Source: Jaenimonas drosophilae (taxonomy: Eukaryota; Euglenozoa; Kinetoplastea; Trypanosomatida; Trypanosomatidae). Taken from it: 64,000 nucleotides of DNA. Under the pieces are notes generated by a model that saw nothing but the letters and a program-made list of their open reading frames with translations, did no database searches and was not told the origin of the DNA. Where the stretch lies: NCBI GenBank assembly GCA_030849065.1, contig JASAON010001612.1, positions 31,760 to 95,759 on the forward strand. Direction: 5' to 3'. Position 1 is the first letter of the stretch. Each line of letters opens with the position of its first letter. Positions 20,081 through 64,000 of this stretch are shown here, piece by piece. Both the position numbers and the translations under genes were made by a program.

Positions 20081-20485
20081 ATGATGCGTGGTGAATAAAA
20101 TGAGCTAATGATGGTGACGTTGATGTGTGGCAGTGGTGTGTTTGTGTGGTGCAGCACCATGCAGACTACAGACACACGCACACAACACAACACAACACCT
20201 CAATCATTCTCAGCTTCACCTACTTGTACTGTATCTTCACCAAAAATGGTTTCATTTGTTTTTTTGTTCTTTTATTCGCACACTTGTACAATCATCACCA
20301 ATGTTCTTTTTTTTCCTTTTCTGTTCGTGTGTCGTTGTGGATGTTGGGCCGGCAGACGTTCCCATCATGGACGTTCCCCCCTTCGCCCGCGTTGAGGAGC
20401 AAGAGCATCCTTCGTGTAGGCATAGAGGCTGAATGTCTTGGCTGCCACCACGACGTGCCCCCACGCCATGCATCTTTGTACTTCC

Positions 20486-20513
20486 TCATCATCATCATCA
20501 TCATCATCATCAT
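20486..20513. repeat. (ATC)n trinucleotide array
   Basis: Nine or so tandem ATC units in the spacer. It would encode poly-His if the upstream frame were translated, which I consider untrue. Confidence 0.95.
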
Positions 20514-20600
20514 TCTAGTCGAGCCAGTGAATTCATCTATAGAATTAGATCCACAAGCACACAAGCACACCTCAGCACCAACAACAACCAACCAAGATTA

Positions 20601-20622
20601 TTTTTTTCGTGTCGTTGTGCAG
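20601..20622 (+). promoter_or_regulatory. Putative trans-splice acceptor for thymidine kinase
   Basis: A T7 run at 20601-20607 and a T/G-rich stretch lead to the first AG at 20621-20622, only eight bases before the ATG at 20631. This is the expected pyrimidine-tract/AG arrangement of a kinetoplastid spliced-leader addition site and would give a very short 5' leader. Confidence 0.55.
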
Positions 20623-20630
20623 ACGGTACG

Positions 20631-25400: not shown

Positions 25401-28400
25401 CCCTCTCCGCCGAGTACGTGGATGGGATGCAGAAGGATCTGGCCAAGATGATGGAGGATCTGAGAAACACCGCCACGGAGAAGATTCAGCAACTGTTGGC
25501 GCGCGATGCTCCGCTGACACCCGACGATTTGGCCGGCATCACGGCCGTCCTCGAGGCACGTGCTGCGGATCGCATCGAGGGCATGAATGAACAACAACAA
25601 CAACGTGCGTCGCGGCATCGTCGCAGCCAGGGTGAGCGCCAGCTGAGGCAGATTGCCGCACGTGAGTCAGCCAAGCTGGCGCAAGGCACGCAAGCCGCCC
25701 TTACCGCCTCCGTCGAGCAGCTGCAGGAGCTGCTTCACGCCCTCGCCTCCGGTGAGGATGAGGCCGCACGTGCTCAGAATGCCGAGGCCGTCAATGAGCT
25801 GTGCGTCGCGCTGCAGGATCAGCTGGGTTCTGCCCTTCAAGAGAGCACCTCCAGCCAGGCACGTGCGACGGATGAGGAGGTACAGAAGCTGGTGGAGCGC
25901 GCGGATGAGGTGAGCCGCGAGGACCACGCCAAGATTGTGGCGAAGCTCGTTGCCGAGGCCAATGACGAGCTTCGCCAAATGATGGCCAAGGTGCAGGTGT
26001 TGGCGGTGCACGAGCAGATGCCAGCGGAGGTGGGCGGTGCCGCTCCCCTCACGGCGGAGCAGTTGCAGAAGCTCGCGCAGGAACTGGAGAGCCTCCCTGC
26101 CTCGGCACTCAGCACCGTTGCCAAGGCTGGCATGAGCAACAACAACTACAACAACGGTGGTGTGTCGGGCGATGGGCGCACGGCTGGTGCGTTGGAGTCG
26201 GGCGAGACGTACATCAGTGCTCCAGCGGCCCTGATGGTGGCCCTCACACCCGAGCGCATGGAGAGGCTCTCATCGCAGCTTCAGGTGCTCGTGGCTGAGG
26301 ATGCCGCCACCGGTGGCGCACTCTCCGCCTCTTCTCCCAACACCTCCGCCGCACGTGGCGCACGTGAGGATGGATGCGATGGAGGCATCTCGTTGCCCAA
26401 GGCGCAGTGGACGCACGCAACACGCATGAGCGTGGCAGACAACGCGAAACGGCAGCTCGCCGCCGGTGAGTGGGAGGACTTCGTTGCTAACTCAAAGCAG
26501 TTCGTGGCGGCGGAGCAGCGCAAGGGTGCGATGCAGGATGCGCGCGCATGCACCGTGGAGCTCCAGCGCATGGACCGGCGCCAAGACAGCCTCGGCCATG
26601 AAGTGATTGAGCAGCTCCCCAACACGCTCCTCGCCACCACGATGGCGGAGCAGGAAACGCTGAGCGATCCGCAGAAACTGCTCGTGGAGGAGGGGGTGGA
26701 GGAGCTCGCCCTGACGCTCGAGAGTGCGTTGGCGGAGCAGCGTGAGATGCAAATGATGGAGCTGCAGTCTGTCTCGATGGCGGAGCTGCAGCGCTCCGCC
26801 GCATCGATGGAACGCATCAGTGCCGATGACGTTGAGAACCTTGGCCGTGCGTTGCAAGCGGTGGTGGCGCAGTCGCTGCAACACGAGATCCGCGCGCTCG
26901 AGGGCCCCATGACGGCGGAGAAGGTGGATGAGGTCTCGGTGCGCCTGGAAGGCCAGGCCAACCGCATCATCGCCGCGGCATGTGCTCAGAAGCAGCAGCT
27001 CAACGAGAAGGAGCAGGGCGCTCTTGTTGCCACGTTGCAACGTGCCTTCGTGAATCATCAAGAAACAACGAAGCAGAAGCGTCAGAAGGTGGTGGAGATT
27101 GCCATGGCTGAGCTCGCAACGAAGCTGCGCGCGACGGCCAACAACGGACGTGAGGCACGTCAGGGAGAGGTGGCCACCCCACGGACGATTGAGCGTCTGT
27201 GCGCAAAGCTGCACGTCATTGCCTCGCAGGAGCTTTCTCGCGTGGAGCAGAAGCAGGCCCTCATTGTCTCGGATGAAACGGCGCGCCTTCGTGCCGAACA
27301 ATCTCACCACGCAACACTACGTGAGGTGTCCGTGATGAGCAATTTGCAATCCTACGCCCAAGACACCATTCAGCACATTGTTGGGCGTGTTGCGATGTCT
27401 GCGGCATGCGCCACCGATCCATCCGCGGCAACAAGTGGTGGTGCCTTGGTGAAGTACAACCCAAGCTGCTCCTCCCTTACCCCTTACACCGCCATCAGTG
27501 GGGTTGGTGCTGGTGCGGATATGAGTCAGCTGAGCGAGGATGCCACCGCGCTGCAGCTCACGGAGCTGAGCATGGCCTCGGGTGAGGTGCGCGGCATCAT
27601 TGCGGAGGAAGTGGTGGCCTGCTTGCAACAGGCGCAGCTCGCGTCGCGAGAGGGCGTTGCGTTGGCCCTCCGCATCCGCGCGATGCCAACACCCGAGAAG
27701 GAGCGTCTGGCGATTCAGGTGCGGCGTGTGGGCGATCGCGGGACGCTCACCTCCCCGAGCCAAGCTCGTCGCCGTCGTGCATCAGAAGCAGCTGCTGCTG
27801 CTCACGCTGCTGGTGGTGCCATTGCCATCAACAACACGTTGAATAGCCCCAACAACCTCGGTGGCAGCAACAACAACAACAACCGCTCGGTGCCACGTCT
27901 TCGTGGTGTGGTGGCCGAGGACGTCATGCCGCTCGAGCCCACCGCCCCGATGCCCGTTGTGGTAAGCCGCGAGCAGCTCCACGACTTGGCCGCTCAGATT
28001 GATGCTCTTCAGCACATGGAGAACGCATCTCTGCGTGGCGCGCCCACCGCGGAAGTGGAGCGACGTCAGAGCACCCAGCTACCACCCTGCACACACGATG
28101 AGCTCACCCAGCTCACCGCGCAAATCTGCACCCTCCCCGAGGATGAGTTCGCTCTGCTCCAACGCCAGCTCGTCGTCTTCACGCGCGCGCTGATGCCGCT
28201 CGAGGAGCAACAACGCAGTGCCGCCGCCGCTCTCACCTCCGTGGCGGGGTATCTCACCGCGGTGCAAGACGCCTACCACACACAAGTCACGGATGCACGC
28301 ATTGATAGCAGCATCGATCCCGCGAAACTGAATATGGCCCTCTCGCAGGTGCAGCGCGCGACGCTCTACGCCGGTGAGGAAGACGGTTCCACGGCGGCCA

Positions 28401-31400
28401 CGAGCGGGCGACGAGATGTGAGCGGCATCATCACCGCCCCGAACCGCATCAGCGCCTATGAAAGTAGCAATATGGGTCTGAGCGCGACGGAGCTGAGGGG
28501 ATCTGCACGCAGCCAGCAACAACAACAACAACAGCAGCAGCTCCTCCAGCTGCAGCAGAATGAGGAGCTCTCACCGACACAACTTCGTCAGCTGCAACAA
28601 CAACAACAACAACAACAGGCGCAGCTCGAGGGCCCCGCATCTCGTCTGTTGCTGGAAGATCGCAAGGCGCAGGTGCAGCAGGAGCAGGCCAACTGCCTCC
28701 AGGCCTTGTGCGACACCATTGAGCGTGCTCGTGGTGAAGAGGCGGAGCAGATGCAGCAGCGGCCATTCATCTCCATGGACCAACCCGAACGTTTGCTCAT
28801 TGAATTCATCAACGAAGCAGATCGCAACAACAACAACAACAACAACAACAGCAACGCGCTCGCACTACGCGCAGGCTCGGAGAATGGCGTTCTCACGGCG
28901 AGTGAGGCTGAGGCGGCTGCTCTGCGCAGCGAGGCACGCAATCTTCGTGCTCTGCAAGCGGTTCAAGTGGTGCTCCGCAACAGCATCAACGAAGGATACA
29001 ACTCATCACGCCATGAGGTTCCTGTGCGTGACGCAACCATGGCGGTGGAGCTCATTGTGTACGACACGGAACGCACACAACTTCAGCGTCGCTCGAGTGT
29101 TCGCCCATCTCCGCCCTCCGCTTCTACCCTGGTGCCCGTGGATGAGGATCAGCCACAACGCCCGGTGGTGCTGCGTGGCCGCGAGGTCTCGCCATCACCG
29201 CCCAACCCTGCCAACACCGCCTTCGTTCGTGGAGCCAACGCACATGCTCATGTGCAGCCCGTGGAGGTGAGCGAGGTGATGGACGAAGACGCACAAGACG
29301 CCACGTCGGTGCCCTTCTTCGCCACTTTGGTGGAGCATTATCTCGCGCAGTGCCCCGAGGTGGTGGAGGCCGTTTCGGTGCTTCACGCCGCGACGCAGGT
29401 GCCACAAACCACCTTCAACCAAAGTTTCTGCTCGCGCGCGATGAGCGTTGAGGAACAACAACCGCTCGAGGAGGTGACGAACCTCACGGGTGAGGAACGT
29501 GGTGGCCCACCTCTTGCAGCACAGCAACAACACGTTGGTGGTCTTGCTGGGGTGCGCGAAGGAATCGAGCAACGCACCTCCGCGCCACGGATGGAAGTGC
29601 TCGAGCGACGAACCAGCGGCCAACAAGGCCAGCTTCGTGAGGATGGCGATGCGTGCTCATCCAAGCCACGCTTGTTGGCACATCAACGTCATGGCGCCTC
29701 CTTGAGCGAGCCCATCCGCACCGAGCGCATCATCGTCTCGCTGGAGATCCTCGAAGAGGCCGTTTCGGCGGTGTTGGCGGCAAACCGCGATCATGTATTG
29801 AACCCTTATGCCGGCATGGCGCCTGAAGAGGTGCAGCTCGTGCGAAGGGCGAGCGAGCGTGTTGAGCAGCGGCCCGGTGCCGCCCCGCGCACACGTGTGC
29901 ATGGAAGCATCAGCTCCATCCACGCAGAACGTGTGCTGCTCGCCACACAAAACCTGCACCTCGCCGGTGTCTCGGAGGAGCGTGCCGGTCTTTCTCAATC
30001 GCCGGCACGTGCCGTGGATGCCTCGATGCACGAATCCTCTCTCGCCGCCGATGATGATTATGATGATGATGATGAGGCTGCTCAACAACAACAACAACTC
30101 CGCAGTCGTGGTGGCAGCAGCCACAACCTCAGCAACCCGCGCTCCCGCTCCAACTCGAAGATCATGATGAAGGATGGTGTGGAGCAGGTTGGATGCTCTC
30201 CGATGCAGGTACATTGTGCCACGGCCGCGATGCGCACCATGGTGAATGAGGCGCAGCGCGTTCCTGCCGCACGTGAAGCGACACAAACCGAGGATGAAGT
30301 GGTGTGGCGTGTGTTGGCGCGTGAGGATGTGCAAGAGGCTCTCAAGGCGCTTGAGCAGTGCTCGGCCGAGGCAGATGAGCTCTACGCCGGGCCGGTGGTG
30401 GTGAAGCAGCCCTACACATTCTCCACGCAGCGGAGCCACACACGTGGCGCACCGGTGCAGGTGAGCGAGGCCCTCGCCCTCCCCGAACGTGATGAAGAAA
30501 ATCGTCGGCACGTGCGCCACGCCGTGGCCACCATTGATGCTGCGCTGCACAATCTTCCCTTGGCTGGCCGCATGAAGCCATCAATTCAACGTGTGGTGGA
30601 GATGGTGCTGGATAACGAGGATGATGCGATGGCGGAGCAACGCAAGAAGAAGCGTGTTCTCACGCGTCTTGGTTATGCCAAGGCCACCAACGATCGCAGC
30701 ACCATGACGGAGATGATGGGCTCCGGTGATGATTTGGCCCTCGCACTCGCCGCGGCACACACCCCACGTGCGTTGTTGGGCACTGATGGCGCACCATCAT
30801 CATCCACGGCGGAGGTGGCGGCCTATCGTGAGGCGGTGGCGGAGATGCTCCAGACGTTTGGTGCGCCTGAGGATGAGATCGCCATCAACGAGCGCCAACA
30901 CCCTGGTGAGTGTTTGCGACGTTTGCGACGCGAGGTTGCGCTACACAAGAAGGCTGAGGAGCCACTCCTGCGGCAGGAGGTGGCGGCGAAGCAAACCGAG
31001 CTCGCGTGCATCCGCGACACCATGATGGAGGTGCGCCGATTGGTGGAGGAGGCGCAACGTCACGGGGCGGAGGAGGAGGTCCTCGCGTCTGAGAATCCCC
31101 GCGTTCAACGCACGCGCAGTTTGCCCGATGTGTTTCGTGATATGGTGTACGCCACACCGAATACACCACGCAATTATGAAAAGGAAAATGGCGCACGTCG
31201 CTCGAGCAGCTCCGCGGCGGGCCGTCCGGGCACGAGTGGCGTTCTGACGGAACAATCATCCAACCGCGGAGGTGGTGTGGTTGGGCGTGGTGGCGCAGAG
31301 AAGAAGTTGAGTAACAACAACAACAACAACAACACCTCATCCTTCATGGAGGAGAACAACAGCCATCAGCTTGTGAATGGCAAGCTCGCGATGCTCCCCG

Positions 31401-32218
31401 AGATTCATCTCGAGGAGCTCCAGCGTTTGTGTAACGCCCATCGCGCGGCGGAGGCGGCGATGCCTTCAAATGGCGCCGTGCCACAGACCGAGGTGGAGCG
31501 CAAGGCGGCAGAGGCCGCAGGCAGCGTTGTTGGGACAACAGAGGTGATTGTGCAGTACATTCGCCAACACTTTTCAGATTATTGGGAGTTGTACCGCACC
31601 TACGAAGAAATCACGTGCCGCGCAGAGCGTCTTGATGAGCTCCTTGACAAGAGCCGCAACGACCGTGATGATAGCAAGCAAGAGTTGGATGCTCTGAAGC
31701 TCGTTCTTGATGCGTTGCGCAAGGAGAATGACAACATGCGCTACGTTCTTCGTGACATGAATGTGGATCTGGAGGAGTACATGGCCAACCTCGCACAACA
31801 AAAGAAGATCAATAAGAAGCTCAAGGCGGAGGCAGATGATCTCAAGGGCAAGGCCGCGGCGCTGAGCACAACGGCACAGCAACAAGAGTTCTGCGAGATG
31901 GGGGCGATGGAGCTGCTCATGAAGAACGAAGACATGTCTGCCATTGAAAAGAGTCTCGAGGAGGTGCAGTACTTCTGCGATGAGGATCTCATCCGCAAGA
32001 AGCGTGCCATGTTGGCCAAGGGCATCAAGGCGATTGGCAAGTTCTGTGAGAAGATGTTGGCAATGCTCCAGTCGCAGCCACGCTTCAACACGGGCACCCT
32101 TGAATCGCAGAGGCTGAATCTGTTGCAGGGGTTGGCGGAACTCCTCGGGCGCATCGATGATGCACATGAGGAGCTCAATACTCAGGTGGAACGCCAGCGT
32201 CAGGGCGTGGCGCGATAG
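22487..32218 (+). CDS. Giant kinesin with N-terminal motor and repetitive 2.8-kresidue tail
   Basis: 3243 residues, far longer than typical kinesins (700-1500). The motor domain occupies about residues 1-400: QVVCRFKP, Walker A GQTGSGKT (118-125), switch I NETSSRSH (from Asn254), switch II DLAGSE (290-295), and the microtubule-binding LTRILQESLGGNS. Neck and coiled coil follow (about 400-530). The tail contains many poly-Asn/Gln runs encoded by AAC/CAA (for example 24085-24101, 24601-24616, 28513-28532, 28597-28617, 28825-28851, 31314-31334). It also has a CPDCGH sequence near residue 627 and a series of degenerate helical units starting with (L/M)-T-x-E-x-(L/M/V) between about residues 1010 and 1880. 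A final coiled coil lies around 3000-3240. A plus-end-directed microtubule motor is expected from the N-terminal motor. No frameshift is seen. The start is the first ATG after the AG at 22438. Confidence 0.95.
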   Translation: MFYRKPEVQVVCRFKPVSKEESGHYVDSKLPPVCVVFDEQNVEVLDRVYAPNFIEGRAPKMPSENAKKRDTLRDLSKTFTLDSILSDKATQEQLYARVGYPIVKNVVKGYNGTVLAYGQTGSGKTHSMLGPEGGTLDVFNRNSELYSSRGLIPRMVEDLFKLLEAMNASERSWSVKVSIFEIYKEDILDLMGGKKKTPAVPQGAKSFRIREDVVGGKGIYIEAMEAVPANSAEELLSMIKSAMHRRKTAVTNFNETSSRSHSLVCINVDQVDRTASSDGVQIFSRLNLVDLAGSEKVYKTLAAGERLKEAQMINLSLTLLGNVIYKLTDGKSGYVPYRDSKLTRILQESLGGNSITTLVCHCSIAMYNREETLSTLRFAQRAKRVKNKPRVNRELTNTELKLQLAAANQTIEVLKQKIQLNNELLGQQRNKNEECDAEMQSILDSLMREIEDLREELQLKEEELCHERDRVDFYRKEAAQLEQELEENRQRAKREKELLEDALGRAQGDNARLLAQLRELKRDLPEGLGGHINNNNNNNGSWTPRRTPRGETRDGTNSPMPAHLCGLTSTAAAAAAMEEQLRRPETADKVIQNDFCGSFHAVVPLGQDQDLLVEKDGVVARRRLVRCPDCGHLLLLPAMRSQATMTVLGMDSPALLEGLRELTEEERTASVAVENPTRPLGSDEVSRSMQVAGQLLSAIAAPPTTNNNNNGATAADESGAAADGAEAADGGLPKDEQTMRAVEILEQVLNVITDAVQRDEDRQKQRDDAAAATANNNNNNNPAKGLTAEDAEEPHTELQDALQISARVLQAWRKSDGTLTPAQLIEQERLAQLELRKLSAPEQAAFLEHEEHLVAAELDHLGRRLQRLVASEEERAADKNGVLRGKDIELACGGEKEALQVGFGTSFADVPVATLRDTMAGKPDGAQFNEDQRGAMERGVKALQEEIQQLLAAHEAELAHGLVAASKQEEAALSAEYVDGMQKDLAKMMEDLRNTATEKIQQLLARDAPLTPDDLAGITAVLEARAADRIEGMNEQQQQRASRHRRSQGERQLRQIAARESAKLAQGTQAALTASVEQLQELLHALASGEDEAARAQNAEAVNELCVALQDQLGSALQESTSSQARATDEEVQKLVERADEVSREDHAKIVAKLVAEANDELRQMMAKVQVLAVHEQMPAEVGGAAPLTAEQLQKLAQELESLPASALSTVAKAGMSNNNYNNGGVSGDGRTAGALESGETYISAPAALMVALTPERMERLSSQLQVLVAEDAATGGALSASSPNTSAARGAREDGCDGGISLPKAQWTHATRMSVADNAKRQLAAGEWEDFVANSKQFVAAEQRKGAMQDARACTVELQRMDRRQDSLGHEVIEQLPNTLLATTMAEQETLSDPQKLLVEEGVEELALTLESALAEQREMQMMELQSVSMAELQRSAASMERISADDVENLGRALQAVVAQSLQHEIRALEGPMTAEKVDEVSVRLEGQANRIIAAACAQKQQLNEKEQGALVATLQRAFVNHQETTKQKRQKVVEIAMAELATKLRATANNGREARQGEVATPRTIERLCAKLHVIASQELSRVEQKQALIVSDETARLRAEQSHHATLREVSVMSNLQSYAQDTIQHIVGRVAMSAACATDPSAATSGGALVKYNPSCSSLTPYTAISGVGAGADMSQLSEDATALQLTELSMASGEVRGIIAEEVVACLQQAQLASREGVALALRIRAMPTPEKERLAIQVRRVGDRGTLTSPSQARRRRASEAAAAAHAAGGAIAINNTLNSPNNLGGSNNNNNRSVPRLRGVVAEDVMPLEPTAPMPVVVSREQLHDLAAQIDALQHMENASLRGAPTAEVERRQSTQLPPCTHDELTQLTAQICTLPEDEFALLQRQLVVFTRALMPLEEQQRSAAAALTSVAGYLTAVQDAYHTQVTDARIDSSIDPAKLNMALSQVQRATLYAGEEDGSTAATSGRRDVSGIITAPNRISAYESSNMGLSATELRGSARSQQQQQQQQQLLQLQQNEELSPTQLRQLQQQQQQQQAQLEGPASRLLLEDRKAQVQQEQANCLQALCDTIERARGEEAEQMQQRPFISMDQPERLLIEFINEADRNNNNNNNNSNALALRAGSENGVLTASEAEAAALRSEARNLRALQAVQVVLRNSINEGYNSSRHEVPVRDATMAVELIVYDTERTQLQRRSSVRPSPPSASTLVPVDEDQPQRPVVLRGREVSPSPPNPANTAFVRGANAHAHVQPVEVSEVMDEDAQDATSVPFFATLVEHYLAQCPEVVEAVSVLHAATQVPQTTFNQSFCSRAMSVEEQQPLEEVTNLTGEERGGPPLAAQQQHVGGLAGVREGIEQRTSAPRMEVLERRTSGQQGQLREDGDACSSKPRLLAHQRHGASLSEPIRTERIIVSLEILEEAVSAVLAANRDHVLNPYAGMAPEEVQLVRRASERVEQRPGAAPRTRVHGSISSIHAERVLLATQNLHLAGVSEERAGLSQSPARAVDASMHESSLAADDDYDDDDEAAQQQQQLRSRGGSSHNLSNPRSRSNSKIMMKDGVEQVGCSPMQVHCATAAMRTMVNEAQRVPAAREATQTEDEVVWRVLAREDVQEALKALEQCSAEADELYAGPVVVKQPYTFSTQRSHTRGAPVQVSEALALPERDEENRRHVRHAVATIDAALHNLPLAGRMKPSIQRVVEMVLDNEDDAMAEQRKKKRVLTRLGYAKATNDRSTMTEMMGSGDDLALALAAAHTPRALLGTDGAPSSSTAEVAAYREAVAEMLQTFGAPEDEIAINERQHPGECLRRLRREVALHKKAEEPLLRQEVAAKQTELACIRDTMMEVRRLVEEAQRHGAEEEVLASENPRVQRTRSLPDVFRDMVYATPNTPRNYEKENGARRSSSSAAGRPGTSGVLTEQSSNRGGGVVGRGGAEKKLSNNNNNNNTSSFMEENNSHQLVNGKLAMLPEIHLEELQRLCNAHRAAEAAMPSNGAVPQTEVERKAAEAAGSVVGTTEVIVQYIRQHFSDYWELYRTYEEITCRAERLDELLDKSRNDRDDSKQELDALKLVLDALRKENDNMRYVLRDMNVDLEEYMANLAQQKKINKKLKAEADDLKGKAAALSTTAQQQEFCEMGAMELLMKNEDMSAIEKSLEEVQYFCDEDLIRKKRAMLAKGIKAIGKFCEKMLAMLQSQPRFNTGTLESQRLNLLQGLAELLGRIDDAHEELNTQVERQRQGVAR

Positions 32219-34150: not shown

Positions 34151-34170
34151 TCTTCTTTCATGTTCGTTAG
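34151..34170 (+). promoter_or_regulatory. Putative trans-splice acceptor for flavohaemoglobin
   Basis: Pyrimidine-rich stretch (TCTTCTTTC) with the AG at 34169-34170. An ATG at 34160, in frame with the gene, lies upstream of this AG and would be removed. The next ATG is 34250, which matches the family's N-terminus. Confidence 0.5.
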
Positions 34171-34249
34171 ATTAACAACCTCCTACTCCTATCGACCCCC
34201 CACCCACACACCTACACAACCCAACCCAACAACACACACCTTCATCATC

Positions 34250-35455
34250 ATGCCTCTTGCCGAGAAGACGATCCAGGTGATTGAGAAGACCGCCCCCGTT
34301 GTGGCAGCTGCAGGACCCGCCCTCACCGCCGCCTTCTACCAGCGCATGCTGAGCCACAACCCCGAGCTGAAGGATGTGTTCAACCTCGCCCATCAGCGCG
34401 ATCTCAGCCAGCCCAAGGCCCTCTTTGATTCCGTCGTGGCCTACGCCACACATCTCCGCGACCTTGGCGCACTCGGCCCGGCCGTTGAGCGCATTGCGCA
34501 CAAGCACGTGGCCTTCAACATTCAGCCCGCACAGTACCAAATTGTTGGCCACCACCTGCTCAAGGCCATTGAGGAGAAGCTGAACCCCGGTCAGGATGTG
34601 CTGGATGAGTGGGGCAAGGCCTACGAGCAGCTCGCCCAGGTGCTCATTGGCCGCGAGGAGGAGATCTATGCCAGCGTTGCCAAGCAGGCCGGCGGGTGGC
34701 GCCCCACGCGGCCCCTCACCGTCACGGAGAAGACGAAGGTGAATGATCTCATCACGAAGTTCAAGCTCTCCGCCGCTGACAAGAAGCCGATTGTGCAGCA
34801 CCAGCCCGGCCAGTACCTCACCCTTCACGTGCGCCACCCCAGCCTGCCCCTGCAGGAGATTCGCCAGTACAGCATCATCTCCACCCCCAACTCAGACTAC
34901 TACGAGATCGCCCTCCGCCGCCACGACCAGGGCCAGGTCTCACGCTACATGCAAGACGTGGTGAATGTTGGCGATCAGATCAACGCCGCTCCCGCCTACG
35001 GAGACTTCTTCTACAACACCCCAGCATCCTCCGAGGCACCCATCGTCTTGATCTCTGGCGGCATCGGACAAACGCCGCTCCTATCCATCCTCCGCACCCT
35101 CGCCGCCAAGAAGGAATCGCGGCCCATCTACTGGCTCCACGCCGCACACAACGCCAAGGTGCGCGCCTTCGCGGATGAGGTGGCACAGATCCAGGCCACC
35201 GCGCTGCCACAGCTCAAGACCTACACGTGGCTGAGCGAGGTGAGTGCTTCGGATGTGAAGGGCAGCACCTACAACTTCACGGGCCACATGGAGCTCAAGG
35301 CGGTGCCGGAGATCTTCGCCACGCCATCTGCTGAGTACTACTACATTGGCCCTCAGGGATTCATGCAGCACGTTGCCAGCCAACTCACCGCGAACAAGGT
35401 GCCCGCCGCACAGATGCACTTCGAGTGCTTCGGACCCTTCAACCCTATTCAGTAG
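34250..35455 (+). CDS. Flavohaemoglobin (nitric oxide dioxygenase)
   Basis: 401 residues, the normal length for bacterial Hmp-type proteins. Oxidises NO to nitrate using O2 and NAD(P)H. Residues 1-140 are a globin: B10 Tyr30, proximal His86 in the AHKHVAFN segment, and the REEEIY segment that closes the haem pocket. A ferredoxin-reductase FAD domain follows, with RQYSI and GQYLT. The NAD domain has GGIGQTPLLS, and the C-terminus has FECFGPF. All hallmark residues are present and no break is seen. Codons are strongly C/G-ending, like adenylate kinase, suggesting good expression. The family is mainly bacterial and fungal, with scattered protists, so acquisition by lateral transfer is likely. 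It is now well integrated, with the same spacing and splice signals as its neighbours. No targeting signal is seen; probably cytosolic NO detoxification. Confidence 0.96.
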   Translation: MPLAEKTIQVIEKTAPVVAAAGPALTAAFYQRMLSHNPELKDVFNLAHQRDLSQPKALFDSVVAYATHLRDLGALGPAVERIAHKHVAFNIQPAQYQIVGHHLLKAIEEKLNPGQDVLDEWGKAYEQLAQVLIGREEEIYASVAKQAGGWRPTRPLTVTEKTKVNDLITKFKLSAADKKPIVQHQPGQYLTLHVRHPSLPLQEIRQYSIISTPNSDYYEIALRRHDQGQVSRYMQDVVNVGDQINAAPAYGDFFYNTPASSEAPIVLISGGIGQTPLLSILRTLAAKKESRPIYWLHAAHNAKVRAFADEVAQIQATALPQLKTYTWLSEVSASDVKGSTYNFTGHMELKAVPEIFATPSAEYYYIGPQGFMQHVASQLTANKVPAAQMHFECFGPFNPIQ

Positions 35456-53661: not shown

Positions 53662-55383
53662 ATGGCATCCACCGTAGCACCTCCACGACGAGCTCCGCCA
53701 ACAACAACAACAACATCATCATCATTGACGGCATCACCGGAGCTCCTCGAGACACGCATCCGCCATCTTCTCCCCATCTCCCAGCAACGCGCCCGAGATC
53801 GTCTTGTTCGTCTCAAGAAGCTCTACGCCACACCACGTGTGCAGCTCGTGGAGGCACATGATCGCATCACGCGCGATGTTGTGCGACGACTGCGCCTGAC
53901 GCAGTCCATCCGCAACGTTCGTGTGGCAAGCAACCTGAACAACAACAACAACACATCATCATCAGCGTCATCTGTTGTTGGTAGTCTGTGTATGCCCTTG
54001 TGCTCCATCATCAACATGGGCGCTGGACGTGTTGTGAGTGGTGCCGTGGATGGCCTCCTCACAATGTGGCGAGTACGTGATGGCACATCCATGTGCAGCA
54101 CATCAAGTTGTAGCGGCAGGCAGTCGTGGGGACGTGTGCGTGGCATCTGCGCACTTCCATCACGGCCGAACATGTTTGCGACGGCCGCGATGTTCGATGA
54201 GCAGATTCGTGTGTGGGAGGTTGTGGGTGATGATGGTGTGGAGATGCATCAACGTGCCAGCACCATCAAGAACAACAACAACAACAACAAAGTGAGTTCG
54301 TCCTCCATCATTCATCAGCTTGCTGCCGACCCAACAGGCCACCTTCTTGGCAGTGCTGGTGCCGATGGATGTGTGCGGTTGTGGGATCTGCAACGCATGA
54401 ATGAAGATGAGCTCTGCACGCTGGAGGTGCACGACGGCTACGACGTGGCGGTGCGCGCGCTGTCATTTCACGTTGACGGAAGCCTCGTGAGCAGCGCCGA
54501 TGATGGCGGACGCATCATCACGTGGGATCTTCGATCCGGTGCGTTGGCCTTTGCCAGCACACACAACAACAACAACAACAACAACAACGTGAAGAAGAGT
54601 GGTGGTGGTGGTGGTCATGCCAAGGCTGCAACGTGTGTGTGTTGGTCGCCGTGTGGCTCACGACTTGCCTCGGGTGGTGCCGATGCCGTCATTCACGTGT
54701 GGGATGCACGCATGCTCCATCAACACGCACAAACACGTCGAGATGCTTCACCATCATCATCATCATCATCGGCAGTGGTGCGATTGCTTGGCCATGAAGA
54801 TGCCATCACCTCCATCGCCTTCTACGATGCACTTGGTACGCACTCCGTCTTGCCGATGCATATCTCATCAACCTCGCTCGATCATTCATTGCGCGTGTGG
54901 AGCTGCGATAATGGATTGGAGGAGCGACGCCTGGAGGCGGCAGCTCCTGTATACGCCCACTGCTTCACTCACGACAACAATAACAACAACAACAACAACA
55001 CGCGAACAGAAAATGAAGATGATGTTGTTGTTGGTGATGGCAAGACGAAGCATGAGCAACGCACGCTCTCACCAGCTGCCATTGTTTCTGTGGGCCACAG
55101 CAAATACTGGTCGGTGTGGGATGTGATGGATGATGATGATGTGCGCGAGCACCTCGTCCGTGAAACCGAAGACATCGCCGCAACACTAGGTGGAGGTGGA
55201 GCAGCTAACATCAACAACAACAACAATGACGAAGATGATGAGGAAAGCAGTGATGATGAGATGGCGGCCCTCCGTCGTCCTGCCGCTGCACCACAGCCAA
55301 ACAACAACAACAACAACAACAATGGTGATGATGATGAAGACGACGAGGATGAGATGGAGCTTCTCCGTCGCCGCAAGGAGTGA
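53662..55383 (+). CDS. WD40 repeat protein with acidic Asn-rich tail
   Basis: 573 residues. A Thr/Ser head and a basic helical segment (RDRLVRLKKLYATP..., residues 45-95) precede a beta-propeller. Blades are marked by VSGAVDGLLTMWRV, QIRVWEVV, LLGSAGADGCVRLWDL, SSADDGGRIITWDL, LASGGADAVIHVWDA and SLDHSLRVWSC. Asn runs from (AAC)n lie in loops between blades (near 53938, 54272, 54565, 54975), so the propeller tolerates large low-complexity loops. The C-terminal 80 residues are acidic with Asp/Asn runs and end in a charged helix (EMELLRRRKE). The role is presumably a scaffold in RNA or protein complexes. The N-terminal basic helix followed by WD repeats is reminiscent of splicing-type WD proteins, but I cannot assign one. 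Confidence 0.88.
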   Translation: MASTVAPPRRAPPTTTTTSSSLTASPELLETRIRHLLPISQQRARDRLVRLKKLYATPRVQLVEAHDRITRDVVRRLRLTQSIRNVRVASNLNNNNNTSSSASSVVGSLCMPLCSIINMGAGRVVSGAVDGLLTMWRVRDGTSMCSTSSCSGRQSWGRVRGICALPSRPNMFATAAMFDEQIRVWEVVGDDGVEMHQRASTIKNNNNNNKVSSSSIIHQLAADPTGHLLGSAGADGCVRLWDLQRMNEDELCTLEVHDGYDVAVRALSFHVDGSLVSSADDGGRIITWDLRSGALAFASTHNNNNNNNNVKKSGGGGGHAKAATCVCWSPCGSRLASGGADAVIHVWDARMLHQHAQTRRDASPSSSSSSAVVRLLGHEDAITSIAFYDALGTHSVLPMHISSTSLDHSLRVWSCDNGLEERRLEAAAPVYAHCFTHDNNNNNNNNTRTENEDDVVVGDGKTKHEQRTLSPAAIVSVGHSKYWSVWDVMDDDDVREHLVRETEDIAATLGGGGAANINNNNNDEDDEESSDDEMAALRRPAAAPQPNNNNNNNNGDDDEDDEDEMELLRRRKE

Positions 55384-55625: not shown

Positions 55626-58600
55626 ATGGAGTACCTCAAACCGAAGCCCAACTCCGTCGTTCGTGTGGCCGATACGCCCTCGCCAACACACGACAACAAC
55701 AACATCACGTCGCAACGCATGTTGGATGTCGGTAACGAGGCGTTGAGCTCGCTGAAGTTTCTCCTTCGCATGGCGCGCAACTTTGAGGATCAGGGGAATC
55801 TGCACGAAAGCATCAAGAGTGCGGAGTCGGCGCTCATCCTGCGCAAGGTGCGTGAGAAGGAGATTGAGGCCGTGATGGAGGGTCGCGAGGAGATCATCAT
55901 CTCGGCGAGTAGCTCACGCGCCAACACCCCACGCAAGCCGAACACCGCGGCACACGCACGGCCAGAGAGCCCACCCATGATTGTGCCGGGAAGTGTACGT
56001 GAGCAGGCCAAGGAGCTCGTCCTGCGCTGCAACAGCTACGCCGTGTCGGAGCTCAACAAGAAACACTTTGAGTCGAGCAACTTCTTCCTCAACAAGGCGC
56101 TCTTTCTCACCGACAACGGCGCCAAGAAGACGCCCGGCGATGCCTCACGCAGCATCAAGAAGGTGATGGCGCTGACCGCCGCCTCTCCGGCCGAGCTCGC
56201 CGCCGCGGTGGCCAACACGCCAGAGGAGGAGGCTCTCACGGTTGGATGTTTCGCTGGTTTCGAAGAAGACCGGCTTCGTTTGCGTGCCTCAACCTACAAC
56301 AACCTCGGATGCATGGACCGACGTCGTGGCAAGCTGGCCGAGTGCCTCGATCATCTGCGTCAGGCCATTCACATTGAGGTGCGCCTCGATCCGAGCACCG
56401 CGGGCAGCGCGAGCACCTACTTGAACCTCTGCACCGTTCTGAATGAGATGCAACGGCACGGAGAGGCCGTCGTGGCCTGTGAGCGCGCCATCGCCGCCCT
56501 TCAGCTCAGCATTCTCGAACAACCGGAGGAGGAGCAGCTCGCACGCACCGCCACCATGTTGGTGGTTGGCTTATACAACTTGGGTGTGTCACTGGAGCGT
56601 CGCGCACGCCCACACGACGATGATGCCGCACACAAGGCCTACCAGCAGGCTCTCGATGTGGCACGGCGCTATCTCTTTGGCCCATCATGTGGCAGCGTGG
56701 AGGAGGCGCTGGACCAGATCAAGCGCATGACGGAGCCGCGGCTCTATCAAGCGCCACCTCCGCCCGATCCGGCAGAGGTGGCCGCCGCTGTTGCCGCCAT
56801 CGCACGCGCCAACGCCACCCCGCTCTCTGAGATCCACGCACTCGAAGCAACGACGCCCGGTCTGCACAGCGACGATGGCGCATCCCCGCCCATGCCCAGC
56901 CACACACGTGGCAGCCCGCTCGATGCCTCGTCGCGCATGAGTGCCGCGGATAGCGGGGCACCGAAGAGCTGCGATGATGACGGCAATGGTGCTGCCGCAC
57001 CGCCAACTCAGCCGCCAACGCAGGAGTTGTTTGTGCGATCGCTTCCCGTGTTGCCGACCATGGCAGCGTTGAAGCGTGGCAGTGGTGCCGCGATGAGCTC
57101 CACGACGGAGCACAGCGGCCACATTCACACGCCAATGAGCGCGGGGAATCCGCCCCAACACGCCAGCACGTTTTCTGGCTTCTCCATCTCGCAGCCAAAC
57201 ACAACGCGCAGCGCCGGTGCGTCGAGCACAGGGCATCATCAGCAACAACACGTGCCAACCACCACTGCCACAGGCCAGGAGCTCCTCAGCTTCCATAGCA
57301 GCAACAGCAGCAACATGGCACAACGCCGCCCACTGCAGCTCGCACCCCTTCATAGCCAATCCATTGGCGATGCCTCGAGTAGCTCTGCTGCCCCTCTCGC
57401 CCGACAACTCCGCCACGATGGCGCAGAGACGCTCAACACGCGCAGCTCGAGCTCCGTTCATCTCGCCAGTTTCCAACAAGGAGGTGGCAGCACCACCAAC
57501 CTCGCCGCACCACCACCACCACCAGGGCGTCGCGTGAGTATGAGCACGCGTGGCAGCATCTCCGCACCTCCCGTCGTGAATGAAAAGAACCCATTTGGAC
57601 GACGTACATTTGGCAGCACCAGTAGCATCTCTACAACACCCTCACGTCTGCCGCCCTTGGGCAACAGTCCGAGCGCGAGCATCACGAGCGCCATGAGCAA
57701 GCAGAGCCCGCAGGCTGCCGCACTCGAGGAGAAGCGCAAGGCCGCGGCACGATCGAAGCGTTTGCAGGAAAAAGTGCGCCACAACACGCGACGACGGCAG
57801 GAAAAGGAGGTGGCGGAGCAGGATGGTGCCATGGCAGAAGTGATGTACGAGCAGATGTTGCAAGGGATGCGAGAAGGTGAGCTCCGTCGCTGCTACAACG
57901 CCGCCACGCAGATTCAACGCGTGTGGCGTGGGGTGATGGCCCGCAGCCTCATTCGTAGCATGATGCAATCCGTCGTGGTGTTGCAACGCGTGGTGCGACG
58001 GCATCTCACCAAGGTGTGGGAGGAACGTCGTCGTGCAGAGGAGGAGAGGCAGCGGCTCATGGCGGAGCGTCAACGCTTGCAGCTTCAGTCTGCGCGCAAG
58101 ATTCAGGCACGTGTGCGGCAGTTTCTGCGGCGTGTGCAGATCCGTCGTGAGTACCTCGCCCGCCAATCGCGCAGTTTCTACGCCGCGCGCGTCATTCAGC
58201 GCGGCTACCGCGCCGCCTGCCAACGTCGTCGTGAAAATCTCGCCGCCCTCGCGGAGGCGCAGCGCCGCGAAGATGAGCAGCGTGCCTTCCGCGAGCGTGT
58301 TGCCGCCCGACGCATCCAACTGGCCTACCACCAATACCGCGGACGGCGGGTGGAGTTTGCAGCGATTCAGGAAAAACAACGCCGCAGTCGTGCCGCCACC
58401 GCCATTCAGGCGTTGGTGCGCGGTGTGTTGGCGCGTGCGTGGTTCCGCTACTACCGCGCCTACCGCCGCGACCAGGAACTGCGCTCCGCCGTCAACGTAC
58501 GCCGCCTGGTGCTGATGCAGTCGGCCATGCGCGCCGTGCAGAGCTACCAACTCTGCCGTGAGAAGGAGGTGGCACAGCTCATTGCCAAGGCCAATCTGCG

Positions 58601-60755
58601 CCTCTTCCAGGCCGCGACGAAGATCCAGACGATGTGGCGCCAACACGTGGCCTTCATTCATCTCGAACGGTTGCGCGCCGACAAGGCACGTCTCGATCGC
58701 CAGGCCATTATCTTGCAACGTTGGCTGCGCATGTGCGTGATTCGCTCCGAATACATTCGTCGCCGTGATGCACGTCGTCGTGAAGCTGCCGCCATCACCA
58801 TTCAGGTCTGGGTACGTGCGCGTTGGCAACACGCCAAGGAAAAGGCCTTCGCCGAGTACCACGCGAAGCTGCTCAAGGCGCAACAACTTGAGCGACTGCG
58901 TCAGTCGGGCAGCCGTGTGGTTCAGGCGTGTTGTCTGGCCAAGCGCAGCGCACTCATTGTGGGGAGCATGATGAAAACCTACCAAAAACACGAAAAGGCG
59001 GCATGTGTGTGGCAGCGTGTGGCGCGTGGCTACGATGGGCGTCGTGAGGTTGCTCTCGATCTCAAGGCCACGCGGTTGATGCGGCAGCAGGAGCGCGAGC
59101 ACATGTTTCGCACCGTCGCCGCCCGCGTCATTCAGCGCGCGTGGCGGTGTGCCATGGCCAAGGATACCGTGGAGCGCATGCGTCGTGAGGCCGCCGCGGC
59201 CGCCATCATCGCACGCAGCTATCGCATTTATCGCGCCAAGATGGAGCTCCATGCGCTGCGCGATGCGCGTCTCGCCAAGCAGCAGGAAGTCTGCGCGAGA
59301 AAGATCCAGCGCATCGTGCGCGCCTACCTCATCAAGCGCAAGGCGCGAGAGATGGATGCCTACTACCGCGCACAACACATTCGCAAGATGGAGCGGCAAC
59401 GTCGTGAAGAGGTGGCAACCATCATCCAGGCCTTGTGGCGCGGGTATACAACACGCAAGGCCGTGCAACAAGAGGTGGAGGCCCTCCACGGCTTGGCGAG
59501 CTACGCCGTGAAGATTCAGCGCGCGTGGCGCAATCACTTCCTGCGGTGCAACATGAAGGAGGAGCTCCTCGTGCGTGGGGAGGAACGGCAGGAGCGGTCC
59601 AAGGCGGTGCTCAAGCTGCAGTGTTTCTGGCGCAAGATGGCGGCGGCGGAGCGCGTGGCACGTTTGCGCGAGACCAACGCCCAACGCCAACACAGCGCCG
59701 TTGTTCTTCAGTGTTGGTGGCGTGGCGTCTTGGCACGACGGGTGCGCGCCGCCCTCCTCCGCGCCCGTGACGAGGAAGAACGCGTGGCGCTCTTCTACGC
59801 CAGCAAGTGGGAGAAGGCCGTTGGCATCGTCAACGCCTTTCTGCGCGCACGACGTTGCCAACTTGAGCGCGTTGAGAACATTCGTCTCTCCCTCCTCAGC
59901 GAGCTCACCTACGAGCAACAAGAGGTCTTCAAGGTGCGCCACAGCGCCGCCACCCGCATTCAGGCCATGTACCGCGGCCACTACGAACGTGTTTATGTGC
60001 GTGGTGTGCGTCGTGAGAGGGCCGCGGAGCACCTCCTGCACACCGCCCTCGCCAAGAAGCAACAACGTGCGGCACTCCGCCTGCAGTGCGCCTACCGCAG
60101 CCACGTGGCGCGGAAGGAGGTTGGCTCGCGCATGGCAGAACGTCGCGCCCAGGTTCTCGCCACCCACGAAAAGCTCGTTGAGACCGCCGACACGCGCGAT
60201 GTTGTGAAGGAGCTCTTTTGGGTGCACGCCGCCACCGATTTGCGGAACAACGCCGCCACACGTCTCGCCAAGATTCAACAACAACAAGATGCGGTGCGGC
60301 GCATCATCACGTGCTACCGTGGTTGGTGTGCGCGCCGACGCACCACCGACGACCGCCTCATTCGTCGTCGTGACCGCGCCGCCAAGATCATCCAGGAACA
60401 CTGGAAGCAGTACATCGCCATCACCACCATCAAGGCGGAGCAGCGCAAACAGCAGGCCGCGCTGGAGATTCAGCGACGTGTGCGTGGTTGGCTCGTGCGC
60501 AAGAACTGGGCCCACTGGCGCCATCAGATGGAGGCCGACCGACGCATGCACGTCATGGCCGACGATGTGTATGATGGGGCAGCCACACGTCTGCAGAGTT
60601 TCTGGCGTCGTGTCTCGGCACGCCGGCACACACAGCGACTGCGTGAGAGCCGCCAACAACAAAAGGAGCTGGAGGCTTGCAACGAGGCCGCCACCGTCAT
60701 CCAGGAAGCCTTCCGCACACACTACGCAGAGAACTCACCTCGTCCTGACAACTAG
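55626..60755 (+). CDS. TPR plus multi-IQ-motif protein, 1709 residues
   Basis: Residues about 30-370 carry TPR-type helix pairs, for example STYNNLGCMDRRRGKLAECL, then YLNLCTVLNEMQRHGEAV and GLYNLGVSLERRA. Residues 400-700 are a Ser/Pro/Thr-rich linker. From about 755 to 1700 the chain is a tandem series of IQ motifs (consensus I/V/L-Q-x-x-x-R-x-x-x-x-R/K). By eye I count about 27, including IQRVWRGVMARS, IQALVRGVLARA, IQRAWRCAMAKD, IQALWRGYTTRK, LQCWWRGVLARR and IQRRVRGWLVRK. IQ motifs bind calmodulin or calmodulin-like light chains without needing Ca2+, so this is probably a calmodulin-decorated rod. There is no myosin or kinesin motor and no calponin domain, so it is neither a myosin nor a standard ASPM. 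A cytoskeletal or flagellar/centriolar role is inferred. Low-complexity trinucleotide runs are few in the IQ half. Confidence 0.93.
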   Translation: MEYLKPKPNSVVRVADTPSPTHDNNNITSQRMLDVGNEALSSLKFLLRMARNFEDQGNLHESIKSAESALILRKVREKEIEAVMEGREEIIISASSSRANTPRKPNTAAHARPESPPMIVPGSVREQAKELVLRCNSYAVSELNKKHFESSNFFLNKALFLTDNGAKKTPGDASRSIKKVMALTAASPAELAAAVANTPEEEALTVGCFAGFEEDRLRLRASTYNNLGCMDRRRGKLAECLDHLRQAIHIEVRLDPSTAGSASTYLNLCTVLNEMQRHGEAVVACERAIAALQLSILEQPEEEQLARTATMLVVGLYNLGVSLERRARPHDDDAAHKAYQQALDVARRYLFGPSCGSVEEALDQIKRMTEPRLYQAPPPPDPAEVAAAVAAIARANATPLSEIHALEATTPGLHSDDGASPPMPSHTRGSPLDASSRMSAADSGAPKSCDDDGNGAAAPPTQPPTQELFVRSLPVLPTMAALKRGSGAAMSSTTEHSGHIHTPMSAGNPPQHASTFSGFSISQPNTTRSAGASSTGHHQQQHVPTTTATGQELLSFHSSNSSNMAQRRPLQLAPLHSQSIGDASSSSAAPLARQLRHDGAETLNTRSSSSVHLASFQQGGGSTTNLAAPPPPPGRRVSMSTRGSISAPPVVNEKNPFGRRTFGSTSSISTTPSRLPPLGNSPSASITSAMSKQSPQAAALEEKRKAAARSKRLQEKVRHNTRRRQEKEVAEQDGAMAEVMYEQMLQGMREGELRRCYNAATQIQRVWRGVMARSLIRSMMQSVVVLQRVVRRHLTKVWEERRRAEEERQRLMAERQRLQLQSARKIQARVRQFLRRVQIRREYLARQSRSFYAARVIQRGYRAACQRRRENLAALAEAQRREDEQRAFRERVAARRIQLAYHQYRGRRVEFAAIQEKQRRSRAATAIQALVRGVLARAWFRYYRAYRRDQELRSAVNVRRLVLMQSAMRAVQSYQLCREKEVAQLIAKANLRLFQAATKIQTMWRQHVAFIHLERLRADKARLDRQAIILQRWLRMCVIRSEYIRRRDARRREAAAITIQVWVRARWQHAKEKAFAEYHAKLLKAQQLERLRQSGSRVVQACCLAKRSALIVGSMMKTYQKHEKAACVWQRVARGYDGRREVALDLKATRLMRQQEREHMFRTVAARVIQRAWRCAMAKDTVERMRREAAAAAIIARSYRIYRAKMELHALRDARLAKQQEVCARKIQRIVRAYLIKRKAREMDAYYRAQHIRKMERQRREEVATIIQALWRGYTTRKAVQQEVEALHGLASYAVKIQRAWRNHFLRCNMKEELLVRGEERQERSKAVLKLQCFWRKMAAAERVARLRETNAQRQHSAVVLQCWWRGVLARRVRAALLRARDEEERVALFYASKWEKAVGIVNAFLRARRCQLERVENIRLSLLSELTYEQQEVFKVRHSAATRIQAMYRGHYERVYVRGVRRERAAEHLLHTALAKKQQRAALRLQCAYRSHVARKEVGSRMAERRAQVLATHEKLVETADTRDVVKELFWVHAATDLRNNAATRLAKIQQQQDAVRRIITCYRGWCARRRTTDDRLIRRRDRAAKIIQEHWKQYIAITTIKAEQRKQQAALEIQRRVRGWLVRKNWAHWRHQMEADRRMHVMADDVYDGAATRLQSFWRRVSARRHTQRLRESRQQQKELEACNEAATVIQEAFRTHYAENSPRPDN

Positions 60756-61160: not shown

Positions 61161-61207
61161 TTCTTCTCCTCCTGTTTCACTTCTTTTTTTTCTCTTTTTC
61201 TTGGTAG
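61161..61207 (+). promoter_or_regulatory. Putative trans-splice acceptor for the TFIIIC-like gene
   Basis: About 40 bases of nearly pure pyrimidine (including a T8 run) followed by GGTAG, AG at 61206-61207. The first ATG after this is 61250. Confidence 0.6.
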
Positions 61208-61249: not shown

Positions 61250-63142
61250 ATGGAGATGCAGCCCACACATCGCGCCTTCGTTACAGTCGAGCTTCCTTTC
61301 CGCGTATCACCACCACACCTCCTCTCCACGACCGAGCAAGCCGCCCAACGTCGTGCGATTGAGGTCTTCGCACCACCAGCCTTTATCCAGCCAAGTCTGC
61401 GAGAGCTCAACCACAACAACAACACTGCAGGGCCAACACTCCCACGAACATTTGCATTCACCAACAACGATGGCAGCAGCAGCAGCAGCGACGATGATGC
61501 AAGCAGCTCCAGCAGTGGCAGTCAAGCAAACAACAACAACAACAACGTTGATGTGGTGCGCACACTCCCCACACAGGCCAGCGACGCACCGCCCGCCTGC
61601 CGCTACGAGGCTGGCCATATCTTCAGCGCCTGGCGCAGCACCAACTGGGAAGGCGAGGATGTGTGCGCGCGCATGAGCGATTTTCAGTCTGCCGCCCTCA
61701 TTGGCAACAACCGCGCCGCGGAGGTGGCGGAGCAGTGGCGGCGGGATCTCTTTCCCTCCACGGAGCCCCAAATGTTGTTGCAGGGCTACTGCCGCAATGA
61801 CGTACTCCTCCGGGTGCGTCAACGCAAGCGCTATCGCCAGCTCCGTGATTCCGCAACGGGTGAGGTGGTGCAACGCGAGCTGCTTGCTCATGATGAAGAT
61901 GTTGCTGTTGCGTCGTCTTCGTCATCGGCGGCAGAGCCTGAGGTGCAGGTCGTTGGGGTTGTGTCGCGGGAGGTGGAGCTCGCACGGCCCGCAGACTTCA
62001 GCTTCGCCCTCCTCTCCAAGGATTTGGCGGTGCGTGCTCCAGAGCTCTGCAGTCGGGATGTGCTACCACCAACCCGCTATCTCAGCCAGCGTGCCCCCGT
62101 GGAGGCCCGCTACGAGATGGGACGAGCCCGCAACACCTCCATCACAACCAACAACAACAACAGCAATTCATCTCTAACAGCACCAGATGCAGGTGTGGGT
62201 GAGCCGTCTCCTACACAGTGGGAGCTGTCGGCGATGCCATCGGTGCTCATCTCCCCCGAGAGCGAGACGATACCTCCCGTGCCGCTCGCGGCCCACCGCG
62301 ACTTCCTCGAGCTCATTGGCGCCTCCCCAGACGGCCGCACCCCGCGCGAGAGCGACCCCGCGGAGGTGCGGGTGCTTCGACGGCTGCTCGAGGAACGCCC
62401 GTTGTGGTCCATGACGCGTCTCTCCGAGGCCATGTGGCGCTCCGGGCGCTGCCCACGTGCGCACCTCAACAAGCAGGTCATTCAGTGCCTCACCTACGTT
62501 GTCACCAACGGGCCCTTCAACCGATTGCGCATCCGCTTTGGCTACAACCCCTACGCCTCCAGCGCCAGCGTCGTCTATCAGCGCATCTCGTTCCGCATCG
62601 CCCGCCGCTCCGATGTTGGTGTGCGCCTCCGGGATGTCTCGCGCTCGCCCTACATCGCCGCCGCCATCAAGACGGTGCTGGAGGAGGAGGCGAAGCGGGC
62701 AAGTGGTGCGCAGGTGGGGCCCACCTTGACGGAGTGTCTGTGCCGCACCATTGCGGGCGGCTGCTTGCACGCCTCCGTCCAGGTGGCCGAGGTGTTGGAT
62801 GATGAGGTGGTGCAGTCCATGGTAAAGCACATTGAGACCGGCACCGACATGGACGTTTCACGACGACGGCTGCCTCAGGGGTGGTTCCGCTCCGGCACCC
62901 ACAAGCAGCTCCTCAGCCACTTCCTGGAGAAGCTCGGCAGCCTCCTCATGGACCGCCTTGTGCCCCTCCTGCAGGCGGCTGAGAATGGCGCGAGTGTTGG
63001 GCAGCGCCGCACGGCCGTTGATGAGGAGGAGGCGGGCAGCTCAGACGGGGTCGCGAGCAACGTGGCGAGTAGCGGGGGGTCTTCCATGTCGGAGGACGAT
63101 CGCGGGCTCATGGGCGAGGAGGAGGAACACCACGCGACATAG
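61250..63142 (+). CDS. TFIIIC subunit tau95 / GTF3C5 (Tfc1)-like protein
   Basis: 630 residues. Three regions match the layout of TFIIIC tau95. First, an N-terminal strand region (FVTVELPFRVSPP) and, after an acidic/Asn linker, a basic segment NDVLLRVRQRKRYR (about residue 180), corresponding to the 'LLLRVRRR' stretch of the dimerisation barrel. Second, the hallmark block at about residues 375-450: LLEERPLWSMTRLSEAMW, a helix, VVTNGPFNRLRIRFGYNP, then VYQRISFRI. In GTF3C5/Tfc1 this is the winged-helix DNA-binding region with 'RP-x-W', 'GPW-R-x-L-x-x-x-x-GYDP' and 'YQ-x-x-D-F-R'. Third, an acidic C-terminus, also typical of the family. Expected role: binding of the tRNA A-box and assembly of Pol III factors. 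Asn runs sit in linkers, as elsewhere. It is the last protein gene before a tRNA gene. The start is the first ATG after the AG at 61206. Confidence 0.75.
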   Translation: MEMQPTHRAFVTVELPFRVSPPHLLSTTEQAAQRRAIEVFAPPAFIQPSLRELNHNNNTAGPTLPRTFAFTNNDGSSSSSDDDASSSSSGSQANNNNNNVDVVRTLPTQASDAPPACRYEAGHIFSAWRSTNWEGEDVCARMSDFQSAALIGNNRAAEVAEQWRRDLFPSTEPQMLLQGYCRNDVLLRVRQRKRYRQLRDSATGEVVQRELLAHDEDVAVASSSSSAAEPEVQVVGVVSREVELARPADFSFALLSKDLAVRAPELCSRDVLPPTRYLSQRAPVEARYEMGRARNTSITTNNNNSNSSLTAPDAGVGEPSPTQWELSAMPSVLISPESETIPPVPLAAHRDFLELIGASPDGRTPRESDPAEVRVLRRLLEERPLWSMTRLSEAMWRSGRCPRAHLNKQVIQCLTYVVTNGPFNRLRIRFGYNPYASSASVVYQRISFRIARRSDVGVRLRDVSRSPYIAAAIKTVLEEEAKRASGAQVGPTLTECLCRTIAGGCLHASVQVAEVLDDEVVQSMVKHIETGTDMDVSRRRLPQGWFRSGTHKQLLSHFLEKLGSLLMDRLVPLLQAAENGASVGQRRTAVDEEEAGSSDGVASNVASSGGSSMSEDDRGLMGEEEEHHAT

Positions 63143-63930
63143 ATGCAAGTGAGCACACAGATATATACATATATATATACATGCATTCGTTGAGATGCGT
63201 ACATTTTCATCATGAATGTTCTTTCATGGCTGAAAACAATGAATTGGGGTTTTCTACCGGTTTGCTTTTGCCGATTATTGTTTTCTTCTCGTAGGTGGTG
63301 GTTAGGGTGTCGACGCTTGGCCCTGTAAGGGTCGGGGCGGTCGTTTGTTAGTAAACAATTAGGTTAAACTTTTTCCCCCTTTCATTGTGGCTTGGACATG
63401 CCGGGGGTTAGAGAGTATAGGGAGGTGGGCGGGCGTGGAAAATTGTTGTTCCCTGCCTAGAGAGACAGTGCGCACTCGACTGGTGTGTAACGGAATGAGG
63501 ATCACGTGTGTTTTGTCTCAGGCATTGGTTCCAAAGAAAACCCAGAAATGTAAAGTGGCACCCGATCACTTCATCTCGATTCAGTACGAGACGTGTCGCT
63601 CGTCAGCAATGTGCCACCACTCGTTGCGCGACACAATGTCGCAAATTCCGTCCAGCTGATAGTGGATCAGTTCTTCTATTGGGTCGTCCCAATCCGAGCC
63701 ATGTTCACCCGCCTACAGAAGGCTCGGTGTGCTCGCATGAGTCTGAATGTTCGCGCTGGGTTTAACCAGGTCTTGTACGTGGCATACATCACGGGGATAC
63801 AGCCGCCCACGAAGTTGCGGAGGCTGAACCCCGCGTGGCGCCGGATCCAGATGACCATAGCGGTTCGCCAAAAGTCGCGAGTGGGCCGGCGCCACCCCCA
63901 AAAAAAAACCATCGTTCGGTGGCAAAAAAG
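63143..63930. other. Compositionally distinct region between the protein-gene unit and the tRNA
   Basis: No trinucleotide arrays occur here, unlike every other spacer. A short AT run (63163-63180) follows the last stop. From about 63290 the sequence is G-rich on the + strand. From 63554 one + frame is free of stops to the window end, running antisense through the tRNA. Its codons look ordinary (many C/G third positions) and it contains patches such as QLIVDQFFYWVV, but I recognise no family. Candidates are a decayed mobile element, a transcription-termination zone or an unannotated gene continuing beyond the window. Confidence 0.4.
63903..63929 (-). terminator. Pol III terminators of the tRNA-Pro gene
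   Basis: On the - strand T6 (complement of 63924-63929) lies one base after the tRNA 3' end. A 5-bp hairpin with one G-T pair (63910-63923) and a T9 run follow at the complement of about 63900-63908, as a back-up terminator. T runs of four or more are the known Pol III stop signal. Confidence 0.7.
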
Positions 63931-64000
63931 GGTCCAGCCGGGAATTGAACCCGGGACCTCTCCCACCCTAAGGGAGAATCATGCCACTAGACCACTGGAC
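63931..64000 (-). tRNA. tRNA-Pro (anticodon AGG), missing its first base at the window edge
   Basis: Read on the - strand, the sequence folds as a standard cloverleaf. The acceptor 3' side CTGGACC (63931-63937) pairs with GGTCCAG, of which the first G lies just beyond 64000. The D arm contains TGGTCTAGTGGCA (A box). The anticodon stem CTCCC/GGGAG encloses the loop TTAGGGT, giving anticodon AGG. The T arm is CCGGGTTCAATTCCCGG (B box GGTTCAATTCC). No intron is present. Directly 3' on the - strand is one C and then T6, and further on a T9, which are good Pol III terminators. The gene is opposite in direction to all protein genes. Confidence 0.95.

Follow-up and report, generated by a model that had tools for sequence, protein, structure and literature searches.

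A divergent Tau95 orthologue, a subunit of TFIIIC, from a non-Trypanosoma trypanosomatid

tRNA genes are transcribed by RNA polymerase III, which TFIIIC recruits to them. An open reading frame (ORF) at the end of a contig of the trypanosomatid Jaenimonas drosophilae raises the question of whether a recognisable subunit of this factor is encoded there, and whether the tRNA gene beside it has any bearing on its function. The ORF lies on the plus strand at positions 61250..63142 of the window, by which we mean the whole 64,000-nucleotide stretch analysed (contig JASAON010001612.1, assembly GCA_030849065.1), and encodes 630 amino acids plus stop from an ATG at 61250. A single frame staying open over 630 aa has p ~5e-8 under a mononucleotide model. 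The original prediction, a TFIIIC tau95-like subunit, is borne out: Pfam, sequence matches in the PDB, a profile search and structure comparison all point to GTF3C5/Tfc1/Sfc1, and we are therefore close to certain that the ORF encodes an orthologue of Tau95, in a trypanosomatid outside Trypanosoma.

Membership of the Tau95 family

The Pfam Tau95 domain (PF09734), the winged-helix DNA-binding region of the family, matches residues 272-449 (62063..62596, plus strand) with an E-value of 1.2e-20 and 75.1 bits against a cut-off of 23.7, and spans profile positions 2-144 of 144. Apart from this domain and the N-terminal family Tau95_N discussed below, Pfam listed three more families, all under cut-off, and an NCBIfam search of the protein assigned no family. 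Six of the seven PDB sequence matches were S. pombe Sfc1, human GTF3C5 or yeast tau95, the seventh being a designed protein (E 2.7). When the profile of our alignment was compared with the PDB instead, the same six chains were recovered at lower scores (4bji at 30.1 bits versus 31.4 by single sequence; 9gi4 at 18.7 versus 26.9), together with one unrelated chain at E 0.31. The profile search thus found tau95 proteins, and no unrelated winged-helix family matched better.

A winged helix with its winged-helix-interacting part was found in the predicted structure, in a modelled DNA-binding domain at residues 328-571 (62231..62962, plus strand). Identity to S. pombe Sfc1, S. cerevisiae tau95 (Tfc1) and human GTF3C5 (TFIIIC5) is 17-24% over aligned residues. 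The product could in principle be a Rap30-like protein of TFIIF, or another winged-helix factor, rather than part of TFIIIC. A structural match to TFIIF Rap30 does exist; it ends at the winged helix (residues 354-432) with a much lower Z, and by structure comparison the winged helix of the window protein resembles Rap30/TFIIF no more than it does Tau95. Taken with the sequence matches, this leaves the Rap30-like reading with next to no probability.

Membership of the Tau95 family is also visible in short motifs. RPLW (residues 383-386; 62396..62407) was located in the alignment, and NGPFNRLRIRFGYNP (residues 420-434; 62507..62551) and VYQRISFRI (residues 442-450; 62573..62599) in both the alignment and the PDB sequence matches, all on the plus strand and all as foreseen. 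R383, P384, W386, G421, R425, R427, R429, P434 and Y435 are invariant in the 21-row alignment, and judged from these rows the motif residues of this block look to be under constraint. A basic stretch had been placed before the block as 'LLLRVRQRK'. It is present, but reads VLLRVRQRK and, at residues 185-193, lies about 180 residues upstream of the motifs rather than adjoining them, within the weak match to Tau95_N. The acidic C-terminal tail occupies residues 590-630 (63017..63139, plus strand), with 12 D/E and 1 K/R.

The N-terminal half and the trypanosomatid relatives

The N-terminal triple beta-barrel, through which Tau95 dimerises and which is a feature of Sfc1, Tfc1 and GTF3C5, is far less distinct. 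Here it is represented by a single match to Tau95_N at residues 182-252 (61793..62005, plus strand), with an E-value of 0.016 and 16 bits against a cut-off of 23.1. This match falls in a low-confidence part of the model: the N-terminal half is rich in asparagine, serine and glutamine and was modelled poorly; of the 33 ten-residue blocks ahead of residue 331, 27 have a pLDDT below 60. The expected structural likeness to tau95 was recovered for the winged helix and its interacting part, while the barrel was not confirmed.

These features, together with a long branch in the tree, would be expected of a Tau95 that has, in this lineage, lost or rebuilt its N-terminal dimerisation module and joins TFIIIC in another way. 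The relatives argue otherwise. A protein search that scored the 7991 candidates with most words in common gave 21 homologues, with E-values from 6.4e-113 to 7.5e-65, each carrying a precomputed PF09734 label. The organism is named for 13 of them, all trypanosomatids (Novymonas, Leishmania, Phytomonas, Leptomonas and Trypanosoma); several of these are annotated as TFIIIC subunits and others as hypothetical proteins. Our alignment comprises 21 rows, the window protein and 20 of these homologues, P0021 (1007 aa) having been omitted for its length. Identity to the aligned homologues is 32-42%, the nearest standing at 42%. All 21 members match Tau95, but only five reach E<=1 against Tau95_N, the lowest value being 0.004, and a weak N-terminal score is therefore common among the relatives. 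Moreover, E14-L15-P16-F17, R182-N183-D184, S239-R240 and R246-P247-A248-D249-F250 are invariant in 21/21 rows, and PMC10781861 describes, by prediction and homology modelling, that the Tau95 proteins of T. brucei and L. major have the dimerisation domain. We regard loss or rebuilding of the module as very improbable.

In the tree, the three Trypanosoma rows split from the other 18 (100/100). The window protein falls among those 18, on a long branch (1.57) whose place is flagged as unsure. One row, P0005 from L. major, is 700 aa long and on that size probably corresponds to LmjF.21.1100. With the published trypanosomatid Tau95 proteins (Tb927.10.980, LmjF.21.1100; PMC10781861) the window protein shares the Pfam domain, the acidic tail and blocks of conservation from end to end; unlike them, it has an asparagine- and serine-rich stretch of its own, in runs across residues 54-99 (61409-61546), where the aligned relatives carry other low-complexity inserts.

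Genomic setting and the neighbouring tRNA gene

Trypanosomatid chromosomes have a polycistronic layout, with which the run of co-directional ORFs in the window agrees. The Tau95 gene closes a likely gene series of 19 long plus-strand ORFs, picked from the 60 ORFs listed. The main doubt in this series concerns 7.5-9.0 kb, which holds two competing ORFs, one of 432 aa on the minus strand and one of 281 aa on the plus strand. Elsewhere, too, picked ORFs are overlapped by long minus-strand ORFs, the largest of which (960 aa) lies opposite the plus-strand IQ-motif ORF 55626-60755, itself backed by Pfam. Several other ORFs of the window have recognisable domains. ORFs 10093-13917 and 16397-20080, which lie close together, both contain the FAZ1 conserved domain (PF23398), the first also having WD40 repeats; ORF 20433-21437 is a thymidine kinase (PF00265, E 1.4e-60); and ORF 22487-32218 encodes a 3243 aa protein with a kinesin motor domain. 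Globin, FAD-binding and NAD-binding domains follow one another in a flavohaemoglobin-like order in ORF 34160-35455, which is possibly of bacterial origin.

Downstream, the stretch 63143-63920 has 13 matches in the source genome including itself, with different parts matching in different places; the best further match is 83% over query bases 443-687. A frame within it (63593-63898) matched no Pfam family. The stretch is perhaps a degraded mobile element. A gene near a contig end that adjoins such repeated sequence might be a decayed or non-expressed copy. Against this, the Tau95 frame is intact, with zero internal stops, and retains the invariant alignment positions. It is also the only copy found in the source genome: a protein search found no paralogue (6/6 first-look candidates scored), and PF09734 gave a single match (1/1). 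Finally, the ATG is preceded by a polypyrimidine tract at 61180-61202 followed by an AG at 61206-61207 (61180..61207, plus strand). In view of how trypanosomatid mRNAs are processed, we take this tract and AG to be a plausible trans-splice acceptor, which would leave a 5' UTR of about 42 nt. That the ORF is a decayed or non-expressed copy is thus hardly credible.

A tRNA gene had been noted nearby, and its proximity judged probably coincidental. The gene is a tRNA-Pro(AGG) at 63930-64000 on the minus strand, separate from the Tau95 gene, convergent with it and about 0.8 kb past its end. It is truncated by the contig end, which is also the window end; ARAGORN places its first base one position beyond. 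The gene matches the B-box pattern with one mismatch (two such matches in the window against a chance mean of 3.23), and its fold is no better than that of shuffled sequences (z -1.16; 25/200 shuffles fold at least as well). Six stretches around seven of the 12 further matches to 63143-63920 were scanned with ARAGORN and Rfam (C199, C338, C324, C344 and C200 were left out; stretch L012 is truncated by a contig end). One of the six, L013, holds tRNA genes, near an SRP RNA gene. At L013 1177-3927, the minus strand holds three tRNA-Arg(ACG) genes and the plus strand a gene for protozoan SRP RNA. The last tRNA gene and the SRP RNA gene diverge from each other, 106 bases apart, and a tRNA-type upstream promoter common to both would be consistent with this arrangement. 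Coincidence fits these observations: neither the window nor the six scanned stretches gave any sign that the Tau95 gene and tRNA-Pro are functionally linked. Tau95 bound at the convergent tRNA-Pro could conceivably halt or shape transcription of its own gene series, and would in that way form a feedback loop. Its one support is position, and we consider it highly unlikely.

Tau95 and TFIIIC in trypanosomatids

We also searched for partner subunits and other polymerase III factors, using four Pfam families of Pol III factors. PF10419 and PF04182, for partner subunits, gave zero matches in the source genome; these are weak tests, PF10419 being positive in 0/14 control genomes and PF04182 in 8/14, all prokaryotes. 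PF12657 and PF07741 likewise had zero matches in the source genome, with 0/14 control genomes positive for either. The WD40 ORF 53662-55383 was considered as a relative of Tau60/Tau91 because both of these are WD40 proteins, for which no trypanosomatid orthologue is known (PMC10781861). This candidate was not supported: its Pfam matches are general WD40 models, and no TFIIIC subunit is named in the best 60 of its 251 PDB matches.

The original prediction drew its importance from a TFIIIC that is poorly defined in kinetoplastids. A 2024 paper has superseded that view by describing Tau95 and a four-subunit TFIIIC for T. brucei and L. major (PMC10781861). As that paper reports, the factor had been missed by the first trypanosomatid genome analyses, and the published Tau55 and Tau138 are matched weakly by HHpred. 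T. brucei Tau95 copurifies with Tau55, Tau131 and Tau138, while Tau60 and Tau91 were not found; ChIP located it on tRNA genes and the U2 snRNA gene, and not on the 5S rRNA gene in that assay. For S. pombe, PMC3799434 reports that the Sfc1 DNA-binding domain (Sfc1-DBD) has a weak affinity for both single- and double-stranded DNA and discriminates little between sequences, and that the acidic tail inhibits DNA binding; the corresponding S. cerevisiae tail residues are dispensable for viability under normal growth conditions.

By analogy with these studied orthologues, the window protein would be part of a TFIIIC complex whose other subunits are Tau131, Tau138 and Tau55. Its winged helix and interacting domain may contact tRNA-type promoters on their A-box side, with little preference for particular sequences, and its acidic tail may hold it in check. 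It would help to recruit TFIIIB and RNA polymerase III both to tRNA genes and to snRNA genes with upstream tRNA or tRNA-like promoters.

Because the same protein was described in trypanosomes and Leishmania in 2024, the Tau95 gene is an ordinary though divergent member of a known family. The presence of TFIIIC in these parasites was already answered by that work (PMC10781861), and the present finding is a confirmation that opens nothing new. What it adds is a divergent sequence for this factor, which helps to show which residues are constrained.
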